DNA of 37,887 bases from a virus: positions 1 through 37,887 of IMG/VR virus record IMGVR_UViG_3300044960_000771. One strand, 5' to 3'. Made by a program: the position numbers and the translations under genes. Position 1 is the first letter of the stretch. The number at the start of each line of letters is the position of its first letter. Shown here one piece after another: positions 9,710-24,703 of the stretch. The notes under the pieces were generated by a model. The model ran no database searches, was not told where the DNA came from, and worked only from the letters and a program-made list of their open reading frames with translations.

Positions 9710-10743
9710 AAGTACCGATGACCCACGATGCCTCCCTCATGGTGACCACCTATTCGATGTGGAACCAGTTCCGGAACTGCCGCAAGGCGGCCGAACTGCG
9801 GTACCTCCAACATCTGGTGCCGCTCGAGCGGGACCGCAACCTGCACTTCGGCTCCCTCATCCACGAGTGCCTGGAGTTGTGGCATCGGGAGCGCGACCTC
9901 GCGCGAGTGCTTGATCTCATTGACCGGCGCTGCGCGGCTCGCGCACAGGACGAGGATCAGAAGCGTGACTGGCAGTTGGCCACGGCCATGATGCGGGCCT
10001 ATGCGCAGCGTTACGCCGAAGAAGAGTTCGAGATTGTGGCCCTCGAGCACGTCTTCGAGGGGCCGATTGTGAATCCGGCCACGGGCGCCGCCTCGCGCAG
10101 CTTCCGGCTGGCGGGCAAGGTCGATGGGATCGTTCGCATCGGCCAAGAGTATTTCATTCTGGAGCACAAGACCGCCTCGCAGATCGATTCCGATTACCTC
10201 GAACGCCTCTGGACCGACTTTCAGATCACGCTCTACGCGCACTACGTCGAGCAGACGATGGGCATCCCTGTTACCGGGATTCTCTACAACGTCCTTGTCA
10301 AGGCACGGCTCCAGCAATCCAGGGGCGAGACCGAGGAAGAGTTCGAAGCCCGCCGAGCGGAACTGCTCGCCAAGTCGAAGACCGGCCGCACGACGGCGCG
10401 GCGGCGCGAGCCGGAATCGGATGATGACTTCCAGCGGCGGCTGGCCGAGAAGTACTCGGATCCGGCGATGTTTCACCGCGAGCGGCTGTATCTGTCGCGG
10501 GAGCAGTTTGACACGTTGCGCGCCGAGTTGTGGGAGCTGACACAGGCCTTCCTCGACGCGCGCCGCCGCGGGGTCTTCTACCAGAACACCTCGTTCTGCT
10601 TCAACTACCAGCGGCCCTGCCCGTACTTCGCCCTTTGCCGCTCTAACGGCAATCCCAACGTGATCGAGAACTTCTACCAGCGCGCCGAGCCCAACGAGGA
10701 ACTCCGCGTCCTCGCGGCCGGCGCGAGTGAACCCGCTTTTTGA
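9685..10743 (+). CDS. PD-(D/E)XK exonuclease with likely Fe-S cluster
   Basis: A 352-residue RecB-type nuclease. The motifs are in order: FGSLIHE (55-61, with His60), Glu121 in the beta strand before the core, Asp147 in KVDGIV, and EHK at 160-162 as the (D/E)XK pair; QxxxY (FQITLYAHYV, about 179-188) follows. Cys32 near the N-terminus and Cys305, Cys312 and Cys318 near the C-terminus form the C...C-x6-C-x5-C pattern of the AddB/Cas4-type 4Fe-4S cluster that ties the two ends of the fold. It would be a DNA end-processing exonuclease of phage recombination. The helicase in the same operon is a natural partner. The ATG at 9685 is preceded by AAGG. Confidence 0.85.
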   Translation: MGLPQAELKVPMTHDASLMVTTYSMWNQFRNCRKAAELRYLQHLVPLERDRNLHFGSLIHECLELWHRERDLARVLDLIDRRCAARAQDEDQKRDWQLATAMMRAYAQRYAEEEFEIVALEHVFEGPIVNPATGAASRSFRLAGKVDGIVRIGQEYFILEHKTASQIDSDYLERLWTDFQITLYAHYVEQTMGIPVTGILYNVLVKARLQQSRGETEEEFEARRAELLAKSKTGRTTARRREPESDDDFQRRLAEKYSDPAMFHRERLYLSREQFDTLRAELWELTQAFLDARRRGVFYQNTSFCFNYQRPCPYFALCRSNGNPNVIENFYQRAEPNEELRVLAAGASEPAF

Positions 10744-10760
10744 AACCCAAGGAGACTTCC

Positions 10761-11504
10761 ATGCCCATTCTTCCCACGACGAAAACCCCGCCCAAGCCGA
10801 GCCTGTCGGATCTGACCGTGCTCTGGTATGGGCAAACAAAAATCGGAAAAACGGCCACGTGCGCGCAAGCCGATGGCGCGGTCTTTCTAGCCACCGAGCC
10901 GGGCTTGAACGCCCTCGAGGTTTTCCAGGCGCCCATCCTTTCCTGGGAAGACCTGCTGGCCGCCTGCGCCGAAATCGGCGAGGGCAAGCACCCGTTCAAG
11001 ACCGTCGTGATCGACACGATCGACAACGCCTACAAGTTCTGCACCGAGTACATCCTGCGCAAGTACAAGGTCGAGCACGAGTCCGACCTCGCTTACGGGA
11101 AGGGCTATGCGATTGTCAACAACGAGTTCCAGCGCGTGCTCACGAAGCTCGCTTTCCTGCCCTACGGGCTGTACCTGATCTCGCACGCCAAGGAGATCGA
11201 GGTCGAAACGCGCACGGGCCGCTACACCCGCATCGTGCCGACGCTGCCCGAGAAGGCGCGCAAGATCGTCCTCGGCATGGTCGACATGGTCCTTTACTGC
11301 GACCTCGATGTGTCGGCCGGCGCCGACGGCGAGCCGCTCATCCGGCGCGTGATCCGCACCAAGCCGAGCCTCTACTACGAAGCCGGGGACCGCACTGGGC
11401 GGCTGCCCGAGACGATCGAGCTCGACTACCGCAAGTTTCTCGAAGCCTTCCAGGCGGCCGGTGCGCCGGCAAAACCGCAGGCCGGCCCCAAGCAGGCCAA
11501 GTAA
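10761..11504 (+). CDS. RecA-like ATPase (AAA_24 type)
   Basis: A 247-residue P-loop protein. Walker A is GQTKIGKT (24-31); Walker B is TVVIDTIDN (81-89), preceded by a typical hydrophobic strand. It matches the phage AAA_24/Sak4-like group, single-domain RecA-type ATPases that pair with a single-strand binding protein for annealing or recombination. Here the next gene is a DUF669 protein, the usual neighbour of this ATPase. A C-terminal Pro/Ala/Lys-rich tail (about 230-247) could be a protein-binding tail. CAAGGAGA lies just before the ATG. Confidence 0.85.
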   Translation: MPILPTTKTPPKPSLSDLTVLWYGQTKIGKTATCAQADGAVFLATEPGLNALEVFQAPILSWEDLLAACAEIGEGKHPFKTVVIDTIDNAYKFCTEYILRKYKVEHESDLAYGKGYAIVNNEFQRVLTKLAFLPYGLYLISHAKEIEVETRTGRYTRIVPTLPEKARKIVLGMVDMVLYCDLDVSAGADGEPLIRRVIRTKPSLYYEAGDRTGRLPETIELDYRKFLEAFQAAGAPAKPQAGPKQAK

Positions 11505-11986: not shown

Positions 11987-12422
11987 CGCGGCGCGGCCCA
12001 CCATTGTCATCGACTCGCGCGAAAAGGAACCCTACTCGTTCGATCCCCGGCTCATCGGCGCCGTGCGGCGGGCGCTCAAGGCCGGGGACTACTCCATCGC
12101 CGGGCTCGAGGACCAGGTGGCCGTGGAACGTAAGACACTCGATGATTTCGTTTCGACCGTGATCCACCGAAGGCGGCGCTTCCGGCAGGAGCTCGGCAAG
12201 CTCAGCCGGTACCGCGCCGCCTGCATAGTGGTCGAGGCCGAGCTTCTCGACGTGCTCGGCAAGCGCTATCGCGGCGAGGCCCGCCCCGAGGCGATCGTGG
12301 GCACGACGCTCTCAATTCTGCTCGATTACGGCGTGCCGGTCCTGTTCTGCGGCAACCGTCAGGCGGCGTGCCATTTCACTAGAGGCTTTCTGCTGGCGGC
12401 GTGGAAGAGGTGGGGACGATGA
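11973..12422 (+). CDS. ERCC4-domain nuclease
   Basis: A 149-residue single-domain nuclease of the XPF/ERCC4 fold. The catalytic core is complete: DSREK at 14-18 gives the first acidic pair, GDY at 38-40 follows, and ERKTLDD at 52-58 is the ERKxxxD catalytic motif. The enzyme should cut branched or single-strand/double-strand junction DNA, in keeping with a recombination module. The TTG start at 11973 lies inside DUF669 and has GGGAGG 12 bases upstream. The stop overlaps the helicase start in ATGA. It lacks the helicase and HhH domains of cellular XPF, as is usual in phages. Confidence 0.85.
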   Translation: MSRSDAARPTIVIDSREKEPYSFDPRLIGAVRRALKAGDYSIAGLEDQVAVERKTLDDFVSTVIHRRRRFRQELGKLSRYRAACIVVEAELLDVLGKRYRGEARPEAIVGTTLSILLDYGVPVLFCGNRQAACHFTRGFLLAAWKRWGR

Positions 12423-15400
12423 GGGATCAGCGCGAGTCGATCCGCGGCACGGTCGATGCGGTCTTCTACTCCGGCCCCACGTTCAGCGCGGGCCGCCTGG
12501 TGACGCCCGATGGCAAGGAGGTGAAGTTCGCAGGCAAAGTCTTTGTTCGCGAGCACGACGCCGTCAGACTTGAAGGCCGCTGGGTGACGCATCCCAAGTA
12601 CGGCCGCCAGTTCGAGGCCGAGTTCTTGGGGCATGACCTGGAACTCGATCCCGAGGGGCTTGCCCGCTTCCTCGCCAACCATCCCGACATCAAGGGTATC
12701 GGCCCGGCCAAGGCGAAATTGATCGCTGATCGATTCGGACGCGGCTTCGATGCGGCTATCCGCAACGAGCCTGAGTCGGTGGCGGCTGTGGCCAAAGCGC
12801 CCATCGAGACCATCGGCGAACTGCGCCGCATCTGGATCGCCAACCGTGATTTCAACCACGCGATGGCGCACCTGGCCGCTTACGGCCTGACGCATCACCA
12901 GGTGACGACACTCGTTGAGAAGTTCGGCAGCCAGGTGGTCGTCATCCTCGAACGCGATCCCTACGTGCTGATGCGCGAGGTCCCGGGCTTCGGCTTCAAG
13001 CGCGTCGACAAGATCGCCCGCAAGATGGGTACGCCTAAGGATCTGCCGTCGCGGATTCGCGCGGGGATTCAATATTGCGTGCTCGCGGCGCTCGATGACG
13101 GCGACTGCTGGGTTGAGTACGAGGATCTGCTCGACCGCGGCAACACGCTACTGGTGATGGACACGCTCGACAGCCGGGAGGTGATCGAGCGGCATCTGGA
13201 GGCGCTGATTGAGGAGGGCGTGCTGGTCTCGCAGGCCTTCGAACGCCTCGTGGTGGCCGATCCCGAGATCCACCGCATGGAAACGGAGCTGGCGGCGGTC
13301 TTCCGGGAATCGCGGCGGTGCGGACCGCGTGCAGTGACCACTCTCGATGCGCTGCTCGACGTCGAAGGCGGCGAGTTGACTCCCGAACAGCGGGAGGCCG
13401 TCAGGAACGCGCTCACCTTTCTCATTTCCTTGATGACTGGCGGCGCGGGCAGCGGCAAGACCTATGCGGTGTCGGCCATCACGACCATTGCAGAGAGGCT
13501 CGAGAAGAAAGTCGTACTTGCCGCTCCGACTGGCAAGGCCGCAAAACGCCTCGAAGAGGTCGTGGGCCATGAGGCGAGCACCATCCACCGGCTGCTCGGC
13601 TTCAATGGCCACAGCTACGCGCGGGATGCGCTGAATCCGATCGAGGCCGACATCCTCGTGGTGGATGAGTGCTTCGATTACAAGCAACCCATACTCACGG
13701 AGGACGGCTGGCGCTGCATCGGAAGTATCGTCAACAACGAAGCGCCGGTTCGCGTCTGGTCCCGGAATCCAGTGACCGGAGAACTGGAACTCAAGCCTAT
13801 CGTCCGGTGGCTGAAACGTAATGCACCTAAGGAGCTCATCCACCTTACCGCAGGACGATCAAACAGTCAGCGGGACGCCCGTTCGATCCTCTGCACTTGC
13901 GACCACAAGATCCTCACGCCCTATGGCTACCGGCGCGCGGGAGAGATACTGCCGGGTGAGGAAATCATAGTTCGTGGACCGGCATTCACTCCGCAGCAAA
14001 AATCGATCCTGATTGGCTCTCTGCTCGGGGATGGCTGCATGGGCAGGCGGAGAAGCGGCCACCCACAGGTCGTAATTACACACGGTCAGGCTCAGCTCGA
14101 ATATCTAACGTTCAAGCAGAAAGCCTTTGGTGCCCTGTCAAGCGCCTTGAGACAGGGGAAATCCGGCTACGGGGCGAAAACCGTCTGGCGTTTGACGCTG
14201 GCGACAACCGACGAAACCTACCAGATCGCCCGAGAAATGATTCAGTCCGGCAACCACGGCTCGGGGCGGCGGCGCTGGATCCCTACCGACCGTTTTCTGG
14301 AGTGGGTAGACGAACAAGCTCTTGCCATCTGGTACTTGGACAACGGGAGCCGCGCGACGCGCATCTCGGCTTCGGGTTCACAGACGTACTTTGCAAAACT
14401 TCACACCGAACGGTTCGGCCAAGCGGACAATTTACGCCTTGCCGGCTTTCTGAAAGCACGGTTCGGATTGGTAGCACAGGTGGCCCCAGACTCCCGAGGA
14501 AACTGGTTCCTACGCTTCAGCAAGGCCGAATCCGGGAAGTTGTTCGACATCATTACGCCCTTCGTCCCCGCCTGCATGGAATATAAGATCCCCGGACGAG
14601 GAACCTACGAGTATCTTCCGGCGATTGAACCACAAACCTGCGTGGCGCGGGTGCGGACCGTGGAGCGCTGTCGGCCCAGCAGCCGTTACGTTTTCGATAT
14701 CGAAGTCGAGGATCATCACAACTACGTCGCCGGCAACATCATCGTCTCCAATTGCTCCATGGTGGATGTCCCTCTGGCCTGGAGGCTGTTTCAGGCGGTC
14801 GACCTGACCAGGACCGCCGTGGTCCTGGTCGGCGATCACAACCAATTGCCGCCCGTCGGCCCTGGCAACCTACTGCGAGATCTGGTCAAGTCGCGGGCAG
14901 TCCCGACGACAATCTTGACCCGGATCATCCGTCAGGCAGGGGTGCTCAAGGAGAACTCGACCGCCATCCTCTCGGGCGAAGTGCGGCCCACCACGGAAGT
15001 CCAAAATGGCGCGCGCCGGCCCTGGTACGTCATCGACCGCTTCAGCGACCGCGAGGACGTGCGGCGGATGCTGCTCTTGCTCTTCGAAGAAGTCCTGGCC
15101 GAGCGTCTCGGCTACGACCTGCTGCGCGATGTGCAGGTGCTGACGCCGACGCACAAGGGCCCGCTCGGCACGGCCGAGTTGAACGTCGCGCTCCAGCGGC
15201 TCCTGCAAAAGAAACTGCGCGGCTTCGACGTGCCGGACGGCGCGCCCGGGCTCAGGCCTGTCTTCTACGCCGGCGACAAGGTCATCCAGACGCGGAACGA
15301 CTACGAACTGGGCGTCATGAACGGCGCAGTGGGCTACGTCGTTGAAGCCACCGCCAAGGGTGCGCTCACGGTCGAATTCGACGGCGCCGTGGTCGAGATC

Positions 15401-15679
15401 GAGCCCGGATCGGACGCGGCCAGCCGCCTTCAGCTTGCCTATGCCTGCTCGGTCCACAAGGTGCAGGGCTCGGAATTTCCCTGCGCCATCGTCGTCGCCC
15501 ACAAGTCGCACTCCTTCATGCACCACCGCAATCTCCTCTACACGGCGGTCACGCGCGCCAAGCAGTCCGTAATCATACTCGGCGACCGCTGGGGCATTGA
15601 GAACTGCGCGGCCAAGCGCCAGGTGGACCGGCGCCACACCTTCCTTTCCTTCCTGCTTCGACCGGAGGCACGCCCATGA
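12419..15679 (+). CDS. RecD2-like helicase interrupted by an intein
   Basis: The 1086-residue precursor is a superfamily 1B helicase with a 361-residue intein (residues 418-778), leaving a mature protein of about 725 residues. The N-terminus has an OB-like part and a helix-hairpin-helix (HPDIKGIGPAKAK near 88-100). Walker A is GGAGSGKT (341-348) and motif Ia is AAPTGKAAKR. Walker B reads VVDE (414-417), then the intein, then CSMVD. GDHNQLPPVGPG (motif III) and a C-terminal UvrD-like VHKVQGSEF...YTAVTRAKQ follow. The domain order fits RecD2, a 5'-3' DNA helicase. ATG 12419 overlaps the ERCC4 stop (ATGA). Function depends on splicing, because the insertion splits the active site. The gene probably unwinds DNA in phage replication or recombination. 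Confidence 0.9.
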   Translation: MRDQRESIRGTVDAVFYSGPTFSAGRLVTPDGKEVKFAGKVFVREHDAVRLEGRWVTHPKYGRQFEAEFLGHDLELDPEGLARFLANHPDIKGIGPAKAKLIADRFGRGFDAAIRNEPESVAAVAKAPIETIGELRRIWIANRDFNHAMAHLAAYGLTHHQVTTLVEKFGSQVVVILERDPYVLMREVPGFGFKRVDKIARKMGTPKDLPSRIRAGIQYCVLAALDDGDCWVEYEDLLDRGNTLLVMDTLDSREVIERHLEALIEEGVLVSQAFERLVVADPEIHRMETELAAVFRESRRCGPRAVTTLDALLDVEGGELTPEQREAVRNALTFLISLMTGGAGSGKTYAVSAITTIAERLEKKVVLAAPTGKAAKRLEEVVGHEASTIHRLLGFNGHSYARDALNPIEADILVVDECFDYKQPILTEDGWRCIGSIVNNEAPVRVWSRNPVTGELELKPIVRWLKRNAPKELIHLTAGRSNSQRDARSILCTCDHKILTPYGYRRAGEILPGEEIIVRGPAFTPQQKSILIGSLLGDGCMGRRRSGHPQVVITHGQAQLEYLTFKQKAFGALSSALRQGKSGYGAKTVWRLTLATTDETYQIAREMIQSGNHGSGRRRWIPTDRFLEWVDEQALAIWYLDNGSRATRISASGSQTYFAKLHTERFGQADNLRLAGFLKARFGLVAQVAPDSRGNWFLRFSKAESGKLFDIITPFVPACMEYKIPGRGTYEYLPAIEPQTCVARVRTVERCRPSSRYVFDIEVEDHHNYVAGNIIVSNCSMVDVPLAWRLFQAVDLTRTAVVLVGDHNQLPPVGPGNLLRDLVKSRAVPTTILTRIIRQAGVLKENSTAILSGEVRPTTEVQNGARRPWYVIDRFSDREDVRRMLLLLFEEVLAERLGYDLLRDVQVLTPTHKGPLGTAELNVALQRLLQKKLRGFDVPDGAPGLRPVFYAGDKVIQTRNDYELGVMNGAVGYVVEATAKGALTVEFDGAVVEIEPGSDAASRLQLAYACSVHKVQGSEFPCAIVVAHKSHSFMHHRNLLYTAVTRAKQSVIILGDRWGIENCAAKRQVDRRHTFLSFLLRPEARP
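13670..14752 (+). mobile_element. Intein with LAGLIDADG homing endonuclease
   Basis: A 361-codon in-frame insertion. It starts with Cys1 (CFDY), contains the N-terminal block A pattern (PILTEDG) and block B TCDH (76-79), and ends in RYVFDIEVEDHHNYVAGNIIVSN, with Cys at +1 of the extein. Two LAGLIDADG motifs are visible: ILIGSLLGDG (113-122) and LAIWYLDNGS (218-227), so it is probably an active homing endonuclease. Removing it restores VVDE-CSMVD, an intact Walker B. The penultimate residue is Ser instead of the usual His, which may change splicing efficiency. The insertion site at the catalytic Glu is a typical intein niche. Confidence 0.93.
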
Positions 15680-20175: not shown

Positions 20176-20535
20176 ATGGCTGATTCTCCCTCCCTCCAGC
20201 CGCGATCGTTGGGCAAGATTGCGGTCCCGACGCCAGGAACGCCTGTCCGGGTGACCTCCGATGCCTCGATCCGGGCCCACCGGATCCGGTTCGCCGTCGT
20301 CATCGGCGAGACGGGACGCGTGTTCCTTGGCATGGCGGGCATGAACAAGGCCACCGGGGCGGGTGTGGTGAAGGAGTTCTGGCCCACGGGCGCGGGCGGT
20401 GGCGTGGCCGACGAGTTGGTGCTCGAATCGGCTACCGGAGAACTGCGGCCGGCGGATTACTACGTCGACGCCAACACGGCGGGCGAGGGGGTGATCGTCG
20501 CCTACTGGGTCTGGGTTCCGAGCTATGCCAGTTGA
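20176..20535 (+). CDS. Hypothetical phage protein
   Basis: A 119-residue protein with beta-rich, Gly- and Val-rich composition (VRVTSDASIRAHRIRFAVVIGETGRVFLGMAGMN). There is no Cys, signal peptide or membrane helix. Its 3' end overlaps the first methyltransferase gene by 11 bases. I do not recognise a family; the small beta-rich fold would fit a virion decoration or accessory protein, but this is speculative. It lies in the region between the candidate origin and the packaging genes. Confidence 0.6.
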   Translation: MADSPSLQPRSLGKIAVPTPGTPVRVTSDASIRAHRIRFAVVIGETGRVFLGMAGMNKATGAGVVKEFWPTGAGGGVADELVLESATGELRPADYYVDANTAGEGVIVAYWVWVPSYAS

Positions 20536-21985
20536 TCGCGTGACGCCGGCGATGGCGAGGCGGATCGAGTTGTGGCCCCTGGAACGCCTTGTGCCCTACC
20601 AGCGCAACCCGAGGACGCACTCCGAGGAGCAGGTGACGCAGATCGCGGCGTCGATCGCCGAGTTCGGCTTCTGCAATCCGATCCTTGTCGACTCGCGGGA
20701 CGGCATCATCGCCGGACACGGCCGGCTGCTGGCGGCAAAGAAACTGGGCTTCGCCGAGGTGCCGGTGATCGTGTTGGATCATCTGGACGAGACCCAGCGC
20801 CGCGCCTACTTGCTGGCCGACAACCGGCTCTCGGAACTCGCCGGGTGGGACAGCGAGATGCTGGCGCGCGAGTTGAAGGAGCTGGCTGACGCCGGATTCG
20901 ACGCGACGCTGGCCGGGTTCGACTCGAAGGAGATCGACGACTTCCTGGCGTCGCTCGAGCGCGGCGCGGAGGCTGAAGCCGAGGAAGTTGCCGATACAGT
21001 TCCAGAGCCGCCAGTCAAGGCGATCACTCACCCCGGCGACCTCTGGCTGATCGGGCCGCACCGGCTGATCTGCGGCGACTGCCGCGATCGCGGCGTGATC
21101 GCGCGGTTGTTCGATGGAGCGAAGGCGAACGTCGTCATCACGTCGCCGCCTTACGCCACGCAGCGCCAGTACGATCCATCAAGCGGCTTCGAGCCGGTGC
21201 CGCCGGAGAAGTACGTCGCCTGGTTCAAGGACGTCGCCGCGGCCATCGAATCGGTGCTGGCGTCGGACGGCTCCTACTTCCTCAACATCAAAGCCCACGC
21301 CGAGGAGGGCGAGCGCCACACCTATGTGATGGACCTCGTGCTGGCACACAGGCGGCAGTGGGGCTGGCGGTTCGTCGACGAGTTCTGCTGGCGCAAGACC
21401 GACGACGGCGTGCCGGGCGGCTGGAACAATCGCTTCAAGAACGCCTGGGAGCCGATCTATCATTTCTCGCGCGAGCGCAAGATCAAGTTCCGGCCGCGCG
21501 AGGTAGCGCACTGGTCCGACGACTGCTTCGACTACTCGCCCGGCAATCCGAAGTCGACCTCGGGTAGCGGGTTGCTCGGCACCGGGCCGCGTGGCGCGGC
21601 GGCCGACAAAGGCAAGAACCATGCGGCCTGGCAGACCACACGCCGCAACGCCAACGACCTCGAAGGGCGACACGGCGGCCTGGCGCGCCCGTCGAATGTG
21701 ATCGAAGCCAAGACCGAGTCCTCGCAGGGGAATCATTCGGCCCCGTTTCCGCGCGCGATCCCGGAGTTCTTCATCAAAGCGTTCTCGGACGCGGGCGATG
21801 TGATCTTCGATCCGTTCTCGGGCAGCGGCACGACACTGGTCGCCGCCGGGCTGCTCGACCGGGCAGGCTTCGGCGTCGAGATCAGCCCGGCCTACTGCGA
21901 CGTGATCCTGCGCCGAATGCAGGAGACCTTGAAGCTCACGCCCGTGCATGCGGTGACGGGCAAACCATTTCAATCCAACACGTGA
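20525..21985 (+). CDS. ParB-DNA methyltransferase fusion (TSPPY type)
   Basis: A 486-residue fusion. Residues about 13-140 form a ParB-like domain (LVPYQRNPRTHSEEQ, GIIAGHGRLLAAKKLG, VIVLDHLDETQRRAYLLADN). Residues about 165-470 are a permuted beta-class amino-methyltransferase: TSPPY at 206-210 is the catalytic motif IV and DPFSGSGTT at 429-437 the SAM-binding motif I. TSPPY is most often N4-cytosine, sometimes N6-adenine. The enzyme would modify phage DNA, for protection from restriction or for regulation. ATG 20525 overlaps the preceding gene; ATG 20552 is an alternative. A second fusion of the same architecture lies at 23315. Confidence 0.9.
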   Translation: MPVDRVTPAMARRIELWPLERLVPYQRNPRTHSEEQVTQIAASIAEFGFCNPILVDSRDGIIAGHGRLLAAKKLGFAEVPVIVLDHLDETQRRAYLLADNRLSELAGWDSEMLARELKELADAGFDATLAGFDSKEIDDFLASLERGAEAEAEEVADTVPEPPVKAITHPGDLWLIGPHRLICGDCRDRGVIARLFDGAKANVVITSPPYATQRQYDPSSGFEPVPPEKYVAWFKDVAAAIESVLASDGSYFLNIKAHAEEGERHTYVMDLVLAHRRQWGWRFVDEFCWRKTDDGVPGGWNNRFKNAWEPIYHFSRERKIKFRPREVAHWSDDCFDYSPGNPKSTSGSGLLGTGPRGAAADKGKNHAAWQTTRRNANDLEGRHGGLARPSNVIEAKTESSQGNHSAPFPRAIPEFFIKAFSDAGDVIFDPFSGSGTTLVAAGLLDRAGFGVEISPAYCDVILRRMQETLKLTPVHAVTGKPFQSNT

Positions 21986-22782: not shown

Positions 22783-23315
22783 AGCCTGCGGCCCCACACG
22801 GCCCGCTAGAATGGCGCCCAATTCCAGGATTCCCCTCCTACGAGGCGTCTGAGCGCGGCGACATCCGAAGCGCGGTTGCGTTCCGCCATTACCCAGCCGG
22901 AATGGTCCTACGGCAACGAAGGAATCGCTTCGGCTATCTGACCGTCAGGCTTTCGGAACGCGGCATCGCTCGTGATGTCTTCGTCCATCGACTGGTCGCG
23001 CTTGCTTTCACCGGCCCTCAACCGGCTCCGCAGCATGAAGTGGCCCACCGCGACGGCGACAAGGCGAACAATCATTGGCGCAATCCGCGGTGGGCGACGA
23101 AGTCCGAGAACTGCAAGGAGAAGCGCATTCTTGGAGAGCTACCGGATATTCGCGGTGAGAAGCATCCCCAGGCACGACTTACTGAGGCGCTGGTGCTCGC
23201 CATGCGTGAGCGGAGACGACAAGGGGCATTCTTTAGGGTGATCGCGGCGGAGTTCGGCGTCCCGAAACTCACGGCCTACGATGCCATCAAGGGGATCACT
23301 TGGAGCCACATATAA
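22779..23315 (+). CDS. NUMOD4-HNH homing-type endonuclease
   Basis: A 178-residue endonuclease. It opens with a NUMOD4 motif (EWRPIPGFPSYEASERGDIRS, 11-31), and the HNH core follows, with VHRLVALAF at 69-77, VAHRDGDKANN at 88-98 and NPRWAT at 102-107. A C-terminal helix-turn-helix-like end (FRVIAAEFGVPKLTAYDAIKG) could read the target. Such genes are free-standing homing endonucleases that insert into phage genomes. The GTG start overlaps the upstream stop (GTGA), and its stop overlaps the second methyltransferase start (TAATG), so it is tightly set into the operon. Confidence 0.85.
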   Translation: MKPAAPHGPLEWRPIPGFPSYEASERGDIRSAVAFRHYPAGMVLRQRRNRFGYLTVRLSERGIARDVFVHRLVALAFTGPQPAPQHEVAHRDGDKANNHWRNPRWATKSENCKEKRILGELPDIRGEKHPQARLTEALVLAMRERRRQGAFFRVIAAEFGVPKLTAYDAIKGITWSHI

Positions 23316-24703
23316 TGGCCGACAACCCTCGAATCGCCACCAACTTCGAATTGTGGCAGGTGGATCGACTGATCCCCTATGCGAGGAATCCCCGCACGCA
23401 TACTGATGAGCAAGTTGCTCAACTGGCCGCGAGTATCATGGAATTCGGGTTTGCAAATCCGCTTCTTGTCGGCAGCGACGGGGTGGTGATCGCAGGCCAT
23501 GCGCGCCTTCAAGCTGCGCGGAAGCTGGGCTTAAGCGACGTTCCGGTCATCGTACTCGATCACCTGACCGAGGCGCAGCGGCGGGCACTGGTCATCGCCG
23601 ACAACCAACTCGCCCTCACAGGCACGGGATGGGATGAAGAGTTGCTGCGCGGCTTGCTCGTTGATCTGCGGCAGGACGAGTTCAACCTGGACCTGCTCGG
23701 GTTCTCCGACGAGGAGATCGCCGGTTGGCTGACGCAGGATCCCGACGCGCCGCAGGAAGGCCTCACCGAGGAAGACGCGGTTCCCGAGCCGCTCGAGGAA
23801 CCGGTTACTCGCCGCGGCGATTTGTGGATTCTGGGCAACCACCGGCTGCTGTGCGGGGATTCGGCGAGCAACGAAGATGTGAAGCGCCTGGTGGAAGGCG
23901 CGCCGGTCGACCTGGTCAACACCGATCCGCCTTACAATGTGCGCGTCGAGCCGCGCTCGAACAACGCCATCGCCGCCGGGCTTTCGTCGTTTGCGGGCTT
24001 GCAGCATCATCAGAGCTTCGACGTTCACCGGGGCGCATCCAAGGCCAAGGCCACCACGAAGAAGATGCGGCCGAAGGACCGCGCGCTGGCCAACGATTTC
24101 ATGAAGGACGCCGACTACGATGTCCTTCTGCGCCAATGGTTCGGCAACATCGCGGCGGCGCTCAAGCCCGGCGGCGCCTTCTACCTTTGGGGCGGCTACG
24201 CCAACTGCGCCAACTACCCTCCGGCGCTGGCCGAATGCGGCTTGTACTTCTCGCAGGCGATCATCTGGGTCAAGAACATGCCCGTGCTCACGCGCAAGGA
24301 CTTTATGGGAGCGCATGAGTGGTGTTTCTATGGTTGGCGTGAAGGGGCGGCGCACTGGTTCAACCCGGACTACAACAACGTGCGGGACGTCTGGGAAGTG
24401 GCGAAAGTGCCTCCGCAATCGATGATTCACTTGACCGAGAAGCCGGTGGAGCTGGCTGCCCGGGCGCTGACCTATTCGTCGAAGGCGGGCGAGACGGTGC
24501 TGGATCTGTTCGGAGGGTCGGGTTCGACGCTGATCGCCTGCGAGAAGCTCGGCCGCCGGGCGAGGCTGATGGAGATCGATCCGCCTTACTGTGACGTGAT
24601 TATCCAGCGGTGGCAGCAATACGCCGGAAGGACAGCGACGCTGGAAGGCGATGGGCGCAGCTTCGATGAGATCCGTGGCGAGCGAATCCAGAATCGAGCG
24701 TGA
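23315..24703 (+). CDS. ParB-DNA methyltransferase fusion (DPPY type)
   Basis: A 462-residue paralog of the fusion at 20525. The N-terminal ParB-like domain (LIPYARNPRTHTDEQ, VIAGHARLQAARKLG, VIVLDHLTEAQRRALVIADN) is clearly related to that of the first copy. The methyltransferase half has DPPY (204-207) as motif IV and DLFGGSGST (about 397-405) as motif I. DPPY predicts an N6-adenine methyltransferase, unlike TSPPY of the first. ATG 23315 shares one base with the HNH stop (TAATG). An in-frame TTG at 23300 is less likely. The two genes may protect the phage against different restriction systems, which is inference. Confidence 0.9.
   Translation: MADNPRIATNFELWQVDRLIPYARNPRTHTDEQVAQLAASIMEFGFANPLLVGSDGVVIAGHARLQAARKLGLSDVPVIVLDHLTEAQRRALVIADNQLALTGTGWDEELLRGLLVDLRQDEFNLDLLGFSDEEIAGWLTQDPDAPQEGLTEEDAVPEPLEEPVTRRGDLWILGNHRLLCGDSASNEDVKRLVEGAPVDLVNTDPPYNVRVEPRSNNAIAAGLSSFAGLQHHQSFDVHRGASKAKATTKKMRPKDRALANDFMKDADYDVLLRQWFGNIAAALKPGGAFYLWGGYANCANYPPALAECGLYFSQAIIWVKNMPVLTRKDFMGAHEWCFYGWREGAAHWFNPDYNNVRDVWEVAKVPPQSMIHLTEKPVELAARALTYSSKAGETVLDLFGGSGSTLIACEKLGRRARLMEIDPPYCDVIIQRWQQYAGRTATLEGDGRSFDEIRGERIQNRA

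Follow-up and report, generated by a model that had tools for sequence, protein, structure and literature searches.

The RecD2 gene and its intein

The window, i.e. the whole 37,887-nt stretch of DNA analysed here (IMG/VR virus record IMGVR_UViG_3300044960_000771), carries a gene for a RecD2 helicase that is interrupted in frame by an intein. The gene is organised as follows:

12401 to 15679, + strand: RecD2 helicase precursor ORF with the intein; GTG at 12401, likelier start ATG at 12419
12419 to 13669, + strand: N-extein, comprising OB, HHH and the first part of the SF1B ATPase up to Walker B VVDE
13670 to 14752, + strand: intein, in frame, 361 aa from Cys1 to Asn361 (ORF residues 424-784)
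13670 to 13981, + strand: N-terminal splicing region, blocks A and B (Cys1; Thr76-x-x-His79), a relative of the Mtu RecA intein in PDB
14597 to 14752, + strand: C-terminal splicing region, blocks F and G (Asp343, His350, Ser360-Asn361)
14747 to 14755, + strand: splice junction, Ser360-Asn361 followed by Cys+1
14753 to 15679, + strand: C-extein, comprising the remaining helicase core, SH3 and UvrD_C_2

The ORF encodes 1092 aa from the GTG or 1086 aa from the ATG, which shares ATGA with the TGA stop codon of the ERCC4 nuclease gene lying upstream. With the insert still in place, the product scores 542.6 bits against the RecD2 model TIGR01448 (cut-off 500), and the domains HHH_RecD2, OB_YrrC, SH3_13 and UvrD_C_2 all exceed their cut-offs. 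The TIGR01448 score and the RecD2-specific N-terminal HHH/OB domains, with PF14490, PF23139 and PF18335 above cut-off, place the protein in RecD2 (SF1B); the first-pass annotation had called it RecD2-like. AAA_19/AAA_30 domains are also present. Surrounding genes encode a Sak4-like ATPase (10740-11504), a DUF669 region, the ERCC4 nuclease and a primase/VapE-type helicase. The phage probably has a host among the Acidobacteriota, since helicase homologues at ~73-89% identity are found mainly in Acidobacteriota MAGs (Bryobacterales and relatives). Elsewhere in the window, this one phage carries two similar ParB-like/DNA methyltransferase fusion genes (20525-21985 and 23300-24703).

The first-pass annotation described a 361-residue intein splitting VVDE from CSMVD, and its coordinates, frame and length hold. 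The junctions read VVDE/CFDYK...IIVSN/CSMVD, with Cys1 directly after Walker B VVDE and Cys+1 opening CSMVD, and the insert matches the intein profiles PF14890 (36.4 against a cut-off of 35.8), TIGR01445 and TIGR01443. Because the insertion splits Walker B, the unspliced precursor should lack a normal ATPase site and hence ATPase activity, as was also proposed there. Intein GC content is 57.8% (GC3 67.9%) compared with 64.6% (GC3 82.8%) for the exteins, which is in line with a foreign origin.

Class 1 splicing requires Cys, Ser or Thr at +1, and a penultimate His is usual in class 1 inteins without defining them, natural exceptions being in existence. Cys1 and block B Thr76/His79 are invariant across the four genomes that carry an intein at this site, and Asn361 is followed by Cys+1 in every carrier. 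The penultimate residue is Ser360 (codon 14747-14749) where His is usual. This Ser was initially noted as a deviation and is real; it is not a one-off lesion, as it is fixed in all four genomes, which end in VSN/C even where the intein is a mini-intein, and penultimate Ser is known from phage inteins. According to Kelley et al. 2016 (PMC5050341), Gly, Lys and Ser occur at the penultimate position of mycobacteriophage inteins, insertion of His in place of a penultimate Gly made one of them splice more slowly, and an upstream block F His can assume the role of the penultimate His. Ser360 is thus a known natural variant that gives no ground for exclusion from class 1, and splicing is expected, since penultimate non-His inteins are known, a block F His can take over and the block F His350 is invariant in the same-site inteins. 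Most likely, the intein splices autocatalytically to yield a helicase with a predicted length of 725 aa (from the 1086-aa precursor starting at ATG 12419), the size anticipated in the first-pass annotation. The mycobacteriophage inteins are likewise class 1 phage inteins with LAGLIDADG endonucleases in ATPase motifs, one of them in the Walker B of TerL1. They differ in lying in other host proteins, the word RecD being absent from PMC5050341, and its passages drawn on here do not mention a conserved Asp-to-Asn change in the endonuclease.

The predicted fold of the splicing domain matches NpuDnaE and Mtu RecA, although the structure model of the intein has a mean pLDDT of 62 (blocks within residues 211-300 at 73-89) and only its endonuclease part is relied on. 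The Mtu RecA intein is also the best PDB sequence relative of this domain, albeit a distant one (phmmer 34 bits) that differs in its RecA host and its penultimate His.

Empty sites and same-site inteins

A query of the joined exteins matched 76 viral loci, and among those in which both halves aligned the site is uninterrupted in 60; the closest of these intein-free viral homologues, L010-L013, share 90-92% protein identity with the window. Readable sites in genome contigs are likewise empty (77/77). The first-pass annotation had staked its reading on intein-free homologues joining exactly at this junction, and the 60 viral and 77 genome loci do so. An intein-based scan of the genome contigs found no cellular relative. 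When 297 genomes of the phylum of L121, an Acidobacteriota relative, were searched with the RecD2 profile, the full-length matches listed spanned ~2.1 kb for ~710 model positions and showed no intein-sized gap; PF03161 is present in seven of the 297, and their endonucleases were sampled in part. A near-DNA search of phage records gave no match.

The search for the same site in related helicases, also suggested at the outset, identified inteins in three genomes besides the window: L002, L066 and the 485-kb huge phage LR745208 (L006/L008). The L002 intein is 98% identical to that of the window, and the L066 intein is 362 aa long and 59% identical. LR745208 carries a 149-aa mini-intein that occupies the identical site and ends in VSN/C but lacks the endonuclease; it shares 53-57% identity in shared columns. 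The RecD2 exteins of LR745208 are only 25-35% identical to those of the window, below the identity of the inteins, which fits, without proving, intein transfer between distant lineages. Four weak C-terminal matches (L003, L004, L005 and L009) were rejected because they belong to different proteins, in which they are separate inteins or regions resembling inteins. A literature search of incomplete coverage returned no paper on a RecD2 intein, and a first report is not claimed.

Other inteins were seen in the same material. The Sak4-like ATPase gene has no intein in the window and contains a 352-353-aa Walker A (GK/S) intein in L002 (1124-2179), L013 (1393-2448) and L066 (1393-2451), with 1037 of 1056 bases shared between the Sak4 inteins of L002 and L013. 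The combinations therefore vary: RecD2 only in the window, Sak4 only in L013, and both in L002 and L066. Three further phage proteins (L088, L090 and L098), at least one of which is a helicase (L090), have inteins directly after an acidic pair resembling Walker B (DE/C), and from this position a Walker B-like point seems to have been invaded repeatedly in unrelated proteins. L187/L188, at 319208-320632 of the huge phage record of L008, mark a 1230-aa open frame with two tandem LAGLIDADG_2 domains, the first of which has degenerate motifs (LGNG, FLDRGG).

The residue at +1 separates carriers from most empty alleles. It is Cys in all carriers, whereas Val is found in 48 of the 60 empty viral loci and in 20 of the 22 genome loci with more than 70% identity; only this genome subset was used for the +1 argument, as Cys counts at genome empty sites are biased by the presence of VDECSMVD among the search patterns. 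Given this distribution, the incoming intein would have needed to supply the Cys itself, and the right flank common to the window and L002 (see below) fits. Cys is also natural at the empty site in L050, L061, L070 and many cellular RecD2 proteins, and splicing is accordingly expected to yield a normal helicase. The haloarchaeal MCM-d intein is comparable: it too lies in a helicase, most of its empty sites have a +1 residue that does not suit splicing, and this residue is co-converted from Pro to Ser on invasion (PMC10643990); that case concerns an archaeal MCM and Pro to Ser, this one a phage RecD2 and Val to Cys.

The endonuclease domain and the tract shared with L002

Between the two splicing regions lies a putative homing endonuclease:

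13982 to 14596 (approximate limits), + strand: LAGLIDADG_2 homing endonuclease domain, I-SceI/I-WcaI type
14021 to 14035, + strand: motif C LLGDG, Asp121 aligned with I-SceI Asp44
14318 to 14347, + strand: motif E ALAIWYLDNG, Asn225 (codon AAC, 14342-14344) aligned with I-SceI Asp145

The domain matches PF03161 (1.6e-19), and the closest solved folds to its predicted structure are I-SceI (Foldseek 3e-10, Z 16.8, rmsd 5.2, 196 aligned) and I-WcaI (9e-10, Z 16.4). Homology to LAGLIDADG_2 stands on both profile and fold, and an active double-strand cutter is not claimed. Both LAGLIDADG motifs had been read as intact in the first-pass annotation, which is correct for motif C, where the equivalent of I-SceI Asp44 is kept, but not for motif E (WYLDNG), where Asn225 takes the place of Asp145. 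This placement comes from profile alignment and not from the structure model, and the numbering passes through a two-residue offset between chains 3oor and 1r7m. The domain further differs from I-SceI and I-WcaI in sitting in an intein instead of an intron. The I-SceI D145A mutant gave no cleavage in 12 h (PMC3928301), and replacing an acid by its amide in I-OnuI (E22Q) abolishes activity (PMC3769382), which makes homing by a double-strand cut of the intein's own questionable.

Asn at this position of motif E is common to the window, L002, L066 and a distant polymerase intein, L105, with Asp in the other 8 of 11 aligned intein endonucleases. Its occurrence in the L066 intein, only 59% identical, argues that Asn225 is not private decay, and its occurrence in the polymerase-like intein of L105 (4001-5008, motif E WYGDNG) indicates that Asp has been replaced by Asn outside RecD2 inteins as well. 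Between the window and L066, amino acid identity is 55.6% in the endonuclease domain (dN/dS ~0.13) and 62.8% in the splicing domain (dN/dS ~0.16), dS being saturated in both. The endonuclease domain thus appears to be conserved about as strongly as the splicing domain and does not look like a decaying relic.

Comparison of the window with L002 reveals a tract of low divergence that extends beyond the intein into two short flanks:

13619 to 13669, + strand: left flank, apparently co-converted; 0/51 mismatches to L002, empty alleles differ at 2-12 positions
14753 to 14782, + strand: right flank, apparently co-converted, including Cys+1 (TGC); 0/30 mismatches to L002, close empty alleles have Val and differ at 8-11 positions

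Intein DNA differs at 15 of 1083 positions (98.6% identical), compared with identities of 88.4% in the N-extein and 91.3% in the C-extein, and dS is 0.035 in the intein against 0.42 (N) and 0.35 (C) in the exteins. The tract spans 13619-14782, i.e. 51 bp and 30 bp past the intein ends, and contains 15 mismatches in 1164 positions against 228 in 2115 for the remainder of the gene (Fisher p 9e-29). The flanks alone contribute 0/81 mismatches (p 2.5e-4), and none of the 1916 other 81-nt extein windows is mismatch-free. These stretches are not intrinsically invariant, given the differences of the empty alleles listed above. The best 1-kb window elsewhere in the region shared by the window and L002 is 92.9% identical. 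The N-extein of L002 is closer to those of the empty L010/L012 (90.5-90.7%) than to that of the window (87.9%), and an extein tree left the relation of the window and L002 unresolved. A dS below that of the exteins, together with matching flanks, marks the intein as recently mobile. The simplest account is that the intein and its short flanks were recently copied between related phages, probably of soil bacteria; the tract looks like homing with flank co-conversion, for which the intein's own endonuclease would be the putative agent.

A model of recent homing and its alternatives

The reading preferred here, with a probability of roughly 0.8, is that of a class 1 cis-splicing mobile intein with an I-SceI-like LAGLIDADG endonuclease, situated in Walker B of a phage RecD2 and recently spread by homing; the element is of a known kind. 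Cys1 would initiate splicing, Cys+1 would accept the acyl group and Asn361 would cyclise, with block F His350 probably substituting for the His usually found where Ser360 stands, and the product would be an uninterrupted 725-aa helicase with DECSMVD. Homing would have copied the intein into intein-free alleles together with ~50 bp of flank on its left side and ~30 bp on its right, and in doing so converted Val+1 to the Cys that splicing needs.

There is a tension between Asn225 and the recent tract, for which three readings may be considered: the enzyme may cut or nick DNA despite its Asn, the break may come from a different nuclease, or the region may have been copied by general recombination. 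The latter two belong to the best surviving alternative, possible albeit doubtful, in which the endonuclease has little or no activity and the intein is now a passenger, the identical tract being due to ordinary homologous recombination among phages or to another nuclease acting in trans. Asn225 at the position where D145A inactivates I-SceI (PMC3928301) favours it, and the second intein in the neighbouring Sak4-like gene of L002 and L066 might give help in trans. However, the tract stops 51 and 30 bp from the intein, and the ~10 kb of sequence in common contain no second one of its kind; conservation of the endonuclease domain persists from one lineage to another where dS is saturated, and Asn225 is itself kept in two lineages. 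A more specific version of the homing model is put forward only tentatively, namely that the endonuclease of the RecD2 intein lineage has naturally fixed Asp-to-Asn in one of two active sites and still drives homing, e.g. by nicking DNA or by means of a modified active site. Within this group of phages, invasion would then always require co-conversion of the intein's own +1 Cys.

The first-pass annotation also suggested that splicing could gate the replication module, i.e. that conditional splicing holds the helicase off until a signal arrives. The split Walker B would be compatible with such a switch, and penultimate-residue changes shift the splicing rate of one phage intein (PMC5050341). 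The idea is nevertheless improbable and gained no positive support: close relatives run the same gene without an intein, mobility accounts for the patchy presence, no conditional-splicing feature was found in the RecD2 intein and, in the RDF case of PMC5050341, splicing is faster with the native non-His residue than with His, and is not conditional.

The compared phage sequences are all metagenomic, the window and L002 included, so that intein-region reads of one phage might have been built into the contig of another; such a chimera is very unlikely, as the two inteins differ at 15 positions and L066 and the huge phage carry same-site inteins independently. Strong purifying selection on a functional-looking, conserved intein is the least credible source of the window/L002 identity, since protein-level constraint cannot explain an intein synonymous divergence of about one tenth of that seen in the exteins, or a tract that reaches into both flanks.

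Recent homing, as preferred here, makes this locus a well-bracketed natural case for phage inteins, in which two genomes share a conversion tract of 1.2 kb, empty alleles number in the dozens, a mini-intein occupies the same site and the +1 residue needed changing. Furthermore, the conserved Asn at a catalytic position in an endonuclease that was recently mobile would allow a direct test of whether nicking can drive homing in nature.
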